Positions 33,804 to 40,699 are shown, counted from the first letter of the stretch. The stretch is DNA of 53,959 bases from a virus (IMGVR_UViG_3300015371_000049:1-53959); one strand, 5' to 3'. Notes: generated from the sequence alone by a model not told the origin. Numbers and translations are program-made.

Positions 33804-34082
33804 ATGCAGCCCGACACCGAAGAGCGGCCGGCCACGGGAACCAGCGGCACCGTCCACCCGCTCGACTACACCAACCTCGCGAACCAGGGCACCCACGAAC
33901 TCGTGCAGTTTCTCGGGCGCCTCGGCCAGAACCGCAACGCCGTCCCGAGCATCGGCGGCGCCGTCGCCGCCGAGCTCCTCACCCGCGACGACTACACCCA
34001 GCGCAAGCTCGCCGCCGAGACCGGGATTCCGCAGTCGACCATCGATCGCTGGATCGCGCCGTACCGGGCGGGGGCCGCCTGA
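33804..34082 (+). CDS. Small HTH protein at the head of the transfer block
   Basis: 92 residues. The ATG at 33804 is preferred over upstream in-frame codons because of its position behind a -10-like CACTAT; no clear Shine-Dalgarno is seen, so it may be leaderless. The C-terminal 30 residues are an HTH (QRKLAAETGIPQSTIDRWIA). The N-terminal half is helical (NLANQGTHELVQFLGRLGQN). Its stop overlaps the next ATG (TGATG), so it is coupled to the DUF2637-like gene. It may regulate the rightward transfer block through the inverted repeat upstream. Confidence 0.7.
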   Translation: MQPDTEERPATGTSGTVHPLDYTNLANQGTHELVQFLGRLGQNRNAVPSIGGAVAAELLTRDDYTQRKLAAETGIPQSTIDRWIAPYRAGAA

Positions 34083-35416
34083 TGATCCGCAAGCACGCCA
34101 CCACCAAGGTCGAGCCCACGTTCTGGCAGCGCTGGCAACTCGGCAGGATGGCCGTCCGCAAGAAGAAGCGCGACGACCGCGACGAACGACGCACCAAACG
34201 ACGCGACCAGCGCCGCACCGATCGCGAACACCGGCCCGGTGACCGGCCGAGCCTGATCATCACCATCGTCGCGATCGCCCTGTCGCTCGGCACCGCCGTC
34301 CCCAGCCAGATCGACTGGTTCCTGGACGTCCTGGCGCACGGCCAGTGGAGCCACGTCAACGCCCCGCGCGCCATCGTCGCCGCGGTGCTCGTCGAAGTGC
34401 TGTGCTGGCTGTGCGCGATCCTCTACGCCCGATCGGTCCACTCAACCCCGGTACGGATCTACCGCCTCGGCACGTTCCTGTTCGCCGCCGTCGCCGCGGC
34501 GATCAACTACGACCACGGGCACGACATCGACCCGATCGTCGGTCTCGTCTTCGCGCTGTCCAGCCTGATGGGCGTCGGCGCGTTCGAGCTGTACATGCAC
34601 CGGGCGCGGCACGCCGCCTCGGGTATGTCGCTCGCCGAGATCCGGCTGTGGGCGCTGCGCTGGCGCCGCCACCCGTTGGTGATGCGCGCGGCTGCAGGCT
34701 TCCGCGCGGTGCACGGTCCGCAGCTGTCCCGGGAGACCGCGTGGAAGTTGGCGTGGGTCGCGCGGCATGGCGCGCCGAAGGTGCCAGTTCCGATGACCGA
34801 TCCGCTCGTGCTGCGACTGCTCGCGCCGGGTTCGAAGGATGGCATCGCAGCGGAACCCGCAGCCTCCGAACCGGGTTCCGGCGGAGTGGCTGTGGCGGAA
34901 CGCGATGTGCTGAAGCTTCCGGTCGGATGGGGCGAACTCGCTTCCGCTGGCGACATCGTGGCCAGGTTCTGGCCGGAACTCCCGAAGGAACTCGGCCTGG
35001 AACTCCCGTCCGCCGACACCCCGCCGAAGGCGGAACCGGCCGGGCGGAACTCGGAACCGAAGCGTGTTCCGAAACCGGCTTCCGCTCCGACGTCGAAATC
35101 GACTTCCGCCCCCGTGCCGACCAGCACAGTTGCGGCGCCGGAAACCGGGCGGAAGCCCGGTCGCAAGGTGCTCGGCGGGCTGGTGCGGAACTCGCCGAGT
35201 TCCGACCGTGTGCGGTTCGCGCCAACCCCGGCGGAACTCAACGGCGAGGGAACCGCGCTCGACCGGATCGGCCGGTACCTCTCGCGGGCGGAAACCGAGG
35301 GGCAGGACCTCGGCGCTCTGGATCGGAAGTACATCGCCGGTCAGTTCAACGTCTCGGATCGCCAGGTCCGGAACTCCATCAAGGCCTACAACGCCGTCAA
35401 GGCGGAAGGGAAATAG
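34082..35416 (+). CDS. DUF2637-like membrane protein with C-terminal HTH-like region
   Basis: 444 residues. A very basic N-terminus (KKKRDDRDERRTKRRDQRR) precedes four membrane segments at about 57-75, 97-117, 128-143 and 151-172. This is the topology of DUF2637 proteins of actinobacterial plasmids and integrative conjugative elements. After a Pro/Ala-rich linker (260-370), the last 55 residues (LDRKYIAGQFNVSDRQVRNS) look like a winged or HTH domain. Such proteins, often called Spd or spread proteins, work with a TraB/FtsK translocase in intermycelial DNA transfer. The translocase gene is 2.4 kb downstream. Confidence 0.75.
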   Translation: MIRKHATTKVEPTFWQRWQLGRMAVRKKKRDDRDERRTKRRDQRRTDREHRPGDRPSLIITIVAIALSLGTAVPSQIDWFLDVLAHGQWSHVNAPRAIVAAVLVEVLCWLCAILYARSVHSTPVRIYRLGTFLFAAVAAAINYDHGHDIDPIVGLVFALSSLMGVGAFELYMHRARHAASGMSLAEIRLWALRWRRHPLVMRAAAGFRAVHGPQLSRETAWKLAWVARHGAPKVPVPMTDPLVLRLLAPGSKDGIAAEPAASEPGSGGVAVAERDVLKLPVGWGELASAGDIVARFWPELPKELGLELPSADTPPKAEPAGRNSEPKRVPKPASAPTSKSTSAPVPTSTVAAPETGRKPGRKVLGGLVRNSPSSDRVRFAPTPAELNGEGTALDRIGRYLSRAETEGQDLGALDRKYIAGQFNVSDRQVRNSIKAYNAVKAEGK

Positions 35417-35419
35417 ATC

Positions 35420-35608
35420 ATGGAAACCGCTACCTCGACGATCATCCGCTGGACGGTCTCGATCGTCGTGTTCTGTCTCGTCGTCGGACTGCTGTTCTGG
35501 TTCATCAAGAACCCGACCACGGCTGCGGGCTTCATCGTCGGCGCCATCGGAGGGATCTTCCGGTTCACCACCGGCCTGATCAACGGCATCGCCGGAATCT
35601 TCACCTGA
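35420..35608 (+). CDS. Small membrane protein
   Basis: 62 residues, ATG three bases past the preceding stop with GGAAGGGAA upstream. Two hydrophobic segments (WTVSIVVFCLVVGLLFWFI and AAGFIVGAIGGIFRFTTGLI) span nearly the whole length. Small membrane proteins of this type accompany transfer genes on actinobacterial plasmids. Function otherwise unknown. Confidence 0.75.
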   Translation: METATSTIIRWTVSIVVFCLVVGLLFWFIKNPTTAAGFIVGAIGGIFRFTTGLINGIAGIFT

Positions 35609-35643
35609 CCACCACGACCGGAACCGCAGAGCAGGAGGAGCCC

Positions 35644-39989: not shown

Positions 39990-40012
39990 CTACCCACTGT
40001 CAGCAAACACAT

Positions 40013-40106
40013 CAAACAAACATCGTCACCAGCGCACCCTGTCCACCGTATGGCCTGTTCTGGGGGCTGAGATCCCCGTAGGCGCGAGGTTTGGTGTGTT
40101 TGTTTG
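40013..40106. repeat. CAAACAAACA / TGTTTGTTTG inverted repeat
   Basis: A 10-bp perfect inverted repeat (40013-40022 and 40097-40106) flanks about 74 bases; the right arm extends into four TGTT units. A small GGGG/CCCC hairpin lies inside. The segment separates the translocase gene from the next plus-strand gene. The low-GC repeat stands out in a 67% GC context and could be a terminator, a recombination site or an origin-like element. Confidence 0.45.
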
Positions 40107-40138
40107 TTTGTTCACTCCAAGTAACTAGGAATGGTGAG

Positions 40139-40699
40139 ATGGACGTACAGGGCAAGATTCAGGAGCTCGAATGCAAGATCCTCAATGCGACTGCGCTCCG
40201 TGACGCACAAAGGTCCGGGGACGAGCTGGCCGAGCACTTCCAGACCGAGATCACGCGCCTCACCAACGAGATGCTGGCCTGGCAGATGCAGGAGTCGAGA
40301 CTGCAGGACATCGACCACAGGATCCGGATAGCGAAGCGCGGAGTTCGCGAGGCCGAGCGGTCTCGCGACTACGGCGGCTGGCCGACCGGGACGGCGAAGG
40401 TCTTCGGTGTCTTCGGCGCGCTGCTGCTCATCATCGCGCTGCTCTGGCCGTCCCCGCCCGCGCTGCTCGTGATCGTGTGCATCGGCTGCCTGCTCGCGGC
40501 CGGCGGTTCCGTTCTCCTCGCCGCGCGGACCCGGCGCGGTGCCGACCAGGTCGTTCTGGATCGGGAACTGGAGCTGGAGCTGGCAGAGAGCTCGTGGCGA
40601 TCGATCGCGCCGGACGGGAAGCCGTGGGTGGAAACGACGAAGGCGCCCGCCCGGGTTGGGGCGAGCGCCTTCGAGGACGACTTCGAGGACGGCGACTAG
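40139..40699 (+). CDS. Coiled-coil membrane protein
   Basis: 186 residues from the ATG at 40139, with AGGA eight bases upstream; an upstream in-frame extension is less likely. Residues 1-75 are helical and coiled-coil-like (QGKIQELECKILNATALRDA, RLTNEMLAWQMQESRLQDID). Two membrane segments follow (FGVFGALLLIIALLW and ALLVIVCIGCLLAAGGSVLL), then a charged tail. The stop TAG shares CTAG with the stop of the convergent gene, inside a CGACTAGTCG palindrome. Function unknown, perhaps the end of the transfer block. Confidence 0.75.
   Translation: MDVQGKIQELECKILNATALRDAQRSGDELAEHFQTEITRLTNEMLAWQMQESRLQDIDHRIRIAKRGVREAERSRDYGGWPTGTAKVFGVFGALLLIIALLWPSPPALLVIVCIGCLLAAGGSVLLAARTRRGADQVVLDRELELELAESSWRSIAPDGKPWVETTKAPARVGASAFEDDFEDGD

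Follow-up and report, generated by a model that had tools for sequence, protein, structure and literature searches.

The locus considered here raises the question of whether a tailed phage can carry, beside its virion genes, a module that moves its DNA from cell to cell in the manner of a conjugative plasmid. The DNA is the IMG/VR virus record IMGVR_UViG_3300015371_000049, analysed over its full 53,959 bases (hereafter the window); no end repeats were found in it, and it may be a fragment. Codon-model gene calling gave about 80 genes. The left arm, on the minus strand, encodes a terminase large subunit, portal, minor head, scaffold, major head, tape measure and minor tail proteins, in agreement with a first-pass annotation that had described a virion-encoding genome. 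Apart from these head and tail genes, and on the opposite strand, lies a transfer-type block (33804–40699, +) in which every frame is intact. The HTH, DUF2637-like, small, Gly/Arg-rich and motor genes listed in that annotation are all present as plus-strand ORFs (Table 1). An antisense ORF at 37713–39557 (−) and other long frames opposite the block appear to be high-GC frame artefacts, which the codon model does not pick.

Table 1. Features of the transfer-type block, with positions counted from the first base of the window.
Feature	Position	Strand	Basis
HTH protein that opens the block	33804..34082	+	ORF; weak HTH matches
DUF2637-type membrane protein, Spd-like candidate	34082..35416	+	444 aa; PF10935 E=2.6e-4
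Intragenic GGAAC/GTTCC array, candidate clt/TRS-like protein-binding array	34787..35253	.	Codon-preserving shuffles
Small 62-aa protein, single TM	35420..35608	+	ORF; hydropathy
Gly/Arg-rich protein, 690 aa	35644..37716	+	Hydrophobic pair at residues 89-117
FtsK/TcpA-fold motor, 728 aa, N-terminal TM, C-terminal winged helix	37803..39989	+	
Bipolar CAAAC/GTTTG array, candidate clt, directly 3' of the motor gene	40001..40112	.	Repeat statistics
186-aa protein, one hydrophobic segment	40139..40699	+	ORF; hydropathy

The motor has the features of an FtsK/HerA-class ATPase: a Walker A motif (GQSRWGKS at 315), a Walker B motif (IQFDE, ending at 412, with D411 and E412) and N-terminal membrane segments. 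The Walker A lysine and the Walker B Asp-Glu pair are conserved in an alignment with the motors of plasmids pGBA129-24a and pAmyja1. Of the four membrane segments originally proposed, three N-terminal ones are clear from hydropathy and the fourth is possible. No Pfam or PHROGs motor family matched the protein even at E 1; this includes PF01580 (FtsK_SpoIIIE), for which the relatives likewise score under the cut-off. A profile built from five motor sequences matched FtsK in the PDB at 2.2e-6. The structure model of the whole motor was poor (mean pLDDT 45), and structural comparison was therefore limited to the core and the tail. The core (residues 276–486) aligned best to TcpA, the conjugation coupling protein of pCW3 (Z 14.0), and then to FtsK (Z 12.9), with unrelated RecA-type ATPases below both at a Z of about 10. 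The C-terminal 74 residues were confidently modelled as a winged helix (H-H-H-E-E, pLDDT 84), a domain that TraB-type systems also possess and that is predicted here to read DNA. The label "gamma-like" that the first-pass annotation had attached to this domain found no support, as Foldseek placed Zur/Fur/ArgR-type winged helices first; FtsK gamma was absent among the 50 Foldseek matches listed, and the FtsK_gamma HMM gave no match in the motor C-terminus. Elsewhere in the window, a 155-aa protein (51483–51950, −) carries a standalone FtsK_gamma domain (PF09397, 5.4e-9) together with a DUF6011 domain and without a motor, and no counterpart of it was found in the six related elements searched.

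A tblastn search with the motor had no match among phage records and just two among plasmids, on pGBA129-24a (Actinoalloteichus) and on pAmyja1 (Amycolatopsis japonica), with 25–27% identity over 270–350 aa; a single-protein scan of viral contigs found nothing. Both plasmids are circular and carry terminase, portal and tail tape measure genes, which makes them phage-plasmids by gene content. They share with this phage the virion genes and a repeat array 3' of the motor, but differ in their array motifs and in that no DUF2637 gene was recognised beside the motor. In a 19-sequence tree, the motor grouped with these two (support 96/98) and fell with the motors of Saccharomonospora phage PIS 136 (JX006077) and viral contigs L017 and L018 into a clade of 94/93, the reading of which is limited by long branches. 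Placement with chromosomal FtsK, and with it this identity, was rejected by an AU test (p = 2.7e-4); a packaging ATPase was rejected as well, a separate terminase being present. The phylogeny, which had been proposed at the first pass as a check, thus places the motor among those of phages and phage-plasmids. A joint clade with pFP1-type Tra reached a support of 57/14 only. The sole classical TraB sampled, pIJ101 Tra, lies towards FtsK in this tree and does not group with the motor, and no sequence similarity between the two was detectable. BLAST similarity of the motor to pZL12.71c or pFP1 Tra was likewise not detectable, and its links to these proteins run via intermediates, architecture or fold. 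The relationship to classical TraB is one of fold and organisation, not of sequence. Because the standard family models miss such motors, phages that carry them are probably under-counted. Microcystis phage Mwe-JY05 (PP395638, L040) carries a motor of the same family in a stretch of 74% GC, and the cyanobacterial host stated for it looks doubtful.

The remaining genes of the block are kin to loci on conjugative plasmids and phage-plasmids. The DUF2637-type protein has three hydrophobic segments and a C-terminal HTH-like tail, and its PF10935 match lies just under Pfam's cut-off. It is 46% and 35% identical to proteins of L017 and L018, 30% identical over the full length to PIS_045 of PIS 136, and has partial relatives on 15 actinobacterial plasmids (14 from Streptomyces and one from Streptosporangium). 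Its kin on actinobacterial plasmids are encoded beside motor genes, which fits a Spd-type membrane protein, and a role in spread is predicted. The order DUF2637, Gly/Arg-rich, motor recurs in L017 and L018, and viral contig L044 has a DUF2637 gene followed by a motor; a portal is encoded in L017 and L044 and a terminase in L018. In Streptomyces plasmids such as pFP1, pSLUN2 and HF10, the succession is a regulator and small genes, then the DUF2637 gene, then the motor gene. The DUF2637 gene and motor also occur together in PIS 136, where, as here, the DUF2637 gene holds a hidden GGAAC array and adjoins an FtsK-type motor. PIS 136 differs in its size (94.9 kb), in a motor gene that faces away from the DUF2637 gene, and in an array with the motif TGGAAC located 3' of the DUF2637 gene.

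The flanking genes also have positional counterparts. The HTH protein matches a small protein in the same position of L017 (42% identity over 33 aa), the Gly/Arg-rich protein resembles pZL12.72c and the L017/L018 proteins in position and architecture, and the 186-aa protein occupies the place of pZL12.70c and of a 172-aa post-motor protein of Streptomyces plasmids. A YdjM-type membrane hydrolase encoded at 45890–46651 (+) is 56% identical to one adjoining the block in L017, and the annotations near the pGBA129-24a and PIS 136 motors likewise include metal-dependent hydrolases. In pGBA129-24a, pAmyja1, L017 and pZL12, the protein just 5' of the motor (pZL12.72c in the last) shares a similar C-terminal domain, which is not evident in this phage; the genes concerned are L003 4701–5582, L004 979–1317, L017 11706–13196 and L016 10859–13159, and pZL12.72c matches the pGBA129-24a protein with 33% identity over 83 aa (5e-7).

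A published parallel is pZL12 (phage ZL12, GQ919031), an experimentally studied plasmid-phage for which replication, transfer and a lytic cycle have been published and in which adjacent tra genes are reported to be required for transfer. We take these genes to be 71c–73c. The alternative position 18c–20c was rejected: 20c lacks a motor motif, and the FtsK-like gene is 71c. Like this phage, pZL12 combines virion genes with a transfer-type locus in the same order: 73c (three TM segments with an HTH-like tail), 72c (Gly-rich, two TM segments), 71c (a 725-aa motor) and 70c (one TM segment). The hydrophobic pair of 72c lies at residues 85–115, as against 89–117 in the Gly/Arg-rich protein. The corresponding proteins of the two elements have no BLAST similarity, and the link therefore rests on architecture and order. 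Two differences are that pZL12 has ParA/ParB and an integrase, none of which was found in this phage, and that no top-ranked array lies 3' of 71c. pSLE1 and PhiNon1 have also been described as elements similar to pZL12. With pZL12 as a precedent, a dual phage and plasmid lifestyle is not new in itself.

TraB of Streptomyces, an FtsK-like hexamer, binds 8-bp repeats at clt and translocates double-stranded DNA, whereas Spd membrane proteins function in spread within the mycelium (PMC12857230, PMC4170104). The TraB/Spd systems of pIJ101, pSVH1 and pFP1 share with this phage a single FtsK-fold membrane motor with a winged helix (here predicted), Spd-type membrane proteins and a short-repeat cis locus adjoining the motor gene (here a candidate). 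The present motor differs from theirs in that the FtsK_SpoIIIE model does not recognise it, and pFP1 Tra differs in having its FtsK_gamma domain N-terminally. Few Streptomyces plasmids have a known clt, and none has been described for the AICE pSAM2 (PMC9513070). In the literature searched, we found no report of a clt in a phage.

Clt-like repeats, another check suggested at the first pass, are present in this phage at two places. The 149 bp from the motor stop to the next gene contain seven copies of CAAAC/GTTTG, three forward and then four reverse, against an expectation of 0.12 per 150 bp and a maximum of four in any of 200 simulated genomes. Among about 2150 windows (4- and 5-mers, window sizes up to 250), this stretch ranked first for repeat enrichment. 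RNA folding of the stretch was unremarkable (z −0.37) and its arms lie 60–71 nt apart, so that an RNA hairpin or terminator was rejected. No clusters of known clt motifs (pSVH1 GACCCGGA, pJV1 CCGCACA, pWTY27 TGACACC) or of KOPS (GGGNAGGG) occur in the 53,959-base record. As a positive control, the repeat scan recovered copies of CCGCACA, the known pJV1 clt motif, 5' of the FtsK-type gene on pSROS01.

Arrays with other motifs follow the motor gene in L017 (CAGGA), L018 (GGACC), pFP1 (CTCTAC) and HF10 (GGAAC), and on the virion-gene-bearing plasmids pGBA129-24a (CGGTA) and pAmyja1 (GGGGAC); the array is top-ranked in this phage, L017, L018 and pFP1. These relatives had been seen before the statistic was fixed, which makes this evidence partly post hoc, and the combined rank test (Fisher 9e-12) is therefore to be read as descriptive. 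Among the elements examined after the statistic was fixed, the 3' array ranked first in L044 (CAACC, 0/218 better), and in L045 copies of GGTCTA immediately follow the stop, where 8/137 windows score as high at k=6; pXan, p1241, p1601 and Mwe-JY05 were unremarkable. Of the lytic phages, Wofford was unremarkable and Gilgamesh was so at k=5, and PIS 136, like pZL12, has no top-ranked array 3' of its motor. On several Streptomyces plasmids, the 3' array is bracketed by an inverted pair of sequences, GCAGGTCA ... TGACCTGC, spaced by about 100 bp (L008 15778–15892, L010 12032–12146, L024 12181–12294, L025 11835–11939 and L026 11823–11928). No TGACCTGC pair was found around the CAAAC array of this phage.

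The second array is hidden in the DUF2637 gene, which contains 18 copies of GGAAC/GTTCC, most of them at 34787–35253, where 4.2 are expected from the rest of the genome. When synonymous codons were redrawn under three nulls, based on the codon usage of the genome, on that of the motor or on the codons of the DUF2637 gene itself, at most 14 copies arose (0/2000 in each). In an unbiased scan of all 5- and 6-mers across 32 genes, GGAAC stood out most in PIS 136 and pXan, and in this phage's DUF2637 gene the top outlier was CGGAA, which overlaps it (0/300 in the 5-mer scan); no comparable k-mer excess was seen in the virion and other control genes of this phage. The linker of the DUF2637 protein uses GAA for Glu ten times and GAG never, against 281 GAA and 658 GAG genome-wide. 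From the codon shuffles, the k-mer scan and the all-GAA linker, it appears that this gene is maintained for its DNA sequence in addition to the protein that it encodes. GGAAC is also in excess of codon shuffles in the DUF2637 genes of PIS 136 (38 copies) and of the conjugative plasmids pXan (22) and p1241 (22), and no such excess was found in those of L017, L018, L044, pFP1, HF10 and Kit19. A parallel is offered by SpdA2 of pIJ101, which binds a palindrome within its own gene and influences stability, not transfer (PMC4170104). In L017, the Gly/Arg-rich gene (11706–13196) holds 10 copies of CGGGGA where codon shuffles give 1.9; this is the motif of the pAmyja1 array.

We consider it probable that this actinobacterial tailed phage carries, in the block, a module for the transfer of double-stranded DNA that works in the TraB/Spd manner and has clt-like sites. 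The motor would be anchored in the membrane via its N-terminus and may assemble as an FtsK-like ring. Its winged helix would load it onto the phage's own repeat arrays (CAAAC, GGAAC or both), and the ring would then pump a circular form of the prophage across septa or into neighbouring mycelium. Spd proteins are thought to form or line the transfer conduit, and the DUF2637, small and Gly/Arg-rich membrane proteins would do so here. More tentatively, there may exist a family of actinobacterial phages with a conjugation-like module of its own, whose docking sites lie partly inside a membrane-protein gene (GGAAC), the DNA being at once gene and clt-like site, an arrangement common to phages and conjugative plasmids; we regard this wider reading as conceivable but rather doubtful.

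The main rival, which shares most of its machinery with transfer, is vertical maintenance or spread: the motor and membrane proteins would distribute an extrachromosomal prophage through the septa within one mycelium and keep it stable, with the arrays as stability sites. The intramycelial action of Spd proteins, the pIJ101 SpdA2 palindrome with its effect on stability instead of transfer (PMC4170104) and the HTH-like tail of the DUF2637 protein itself all fit this explanation. We nevertheless consider it unlikely, as related loci reside on conjugative Streptomyces plasmids and on pZL12, where the adjacent tra genes are reported to be needed for transfer. Moreover, known systems couple spread within the mycelium to conjugation, and the two explanations are for this reason partly the same mechanism.

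A virion- or infection-related translocase, acting in packaging, ejection or host takeover, is presumed for the FtsK-like motors that lytic Streptomyces phages carry too; those of Wofford, Gilgamesh and others are weakly similar to the L018 motor. For the present block such a role is improbable: the phage has its terminase, the block stands apart from the head and tail genes and on the other strand, the lytic-phage motors come without a DUF2637 gene and without a comparable array, and the two nearest motors are on circular plasmids. That the block is a captured plasmid fragment or an assembly chimera, functionless in this phage, might be suspected of a single virus contig without end repeats, yet this is the least probable explanation. 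The block is intact and is found in the same gene neighbourhood in several independent genomes of phages and phage-plasmids, the hidden array indicates selection on the DNA beyond the protein, and L017 shares, beside its block, the YdjM and WhiB genes that this phage has in its right arm.

Under the transfer reading, the phage may have two travelling forms, virus and plasmid. The first-pass annotation had gone as far as naming it a phage-plasmid with two ways of moving. Its view of the block as being of plasmid-transfer type is supported by the DUF2637 relatives on 15 plasmids, the motor kin on phage-plasmids and the clt-like repeats. The plasmid state is putative: neither a ParA-type AAA_31 protein nor a tyrosine integrase was found and no rep gene was recognised in the record, which is without end repeats and may be incomplete. 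If the block works as proposed, the phage could spread without lysing its host, from hypha to hypha as double-stranded DNA, with exit as a virion when useful. This would blur the boundary between plasmid and phage in multicellular bacteria and explain the persistence of such elements. The two arrays provide concrete candidate sites for the loading of a double-stranded DNA transfer motor.

Three further features of the window were observed outside the block. The GC skew has a sharp minimum (−0.25) at 22001–24054, adjoining a 361-bp intergenic stretch (23694–24054), and this region is a possible origin or arm boundary. A gene at 31294–32877 (−) encodes a TROVE/Ro60-type RNA-binding protein (PF05731, 1.1e-17; phrog_850, 1.3e-45), and a Ro-like gene is also present in phage Wofford, which has an FtsK-like motor. 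Finally, four copies of GGTGTACGTACACC, two of them exact, lie at 41519–41624 between a divergent RHH/Arc-like repressor gene (41299–41502, −) and position 41644 (+), and look like the operator of this repressor or a centromere.
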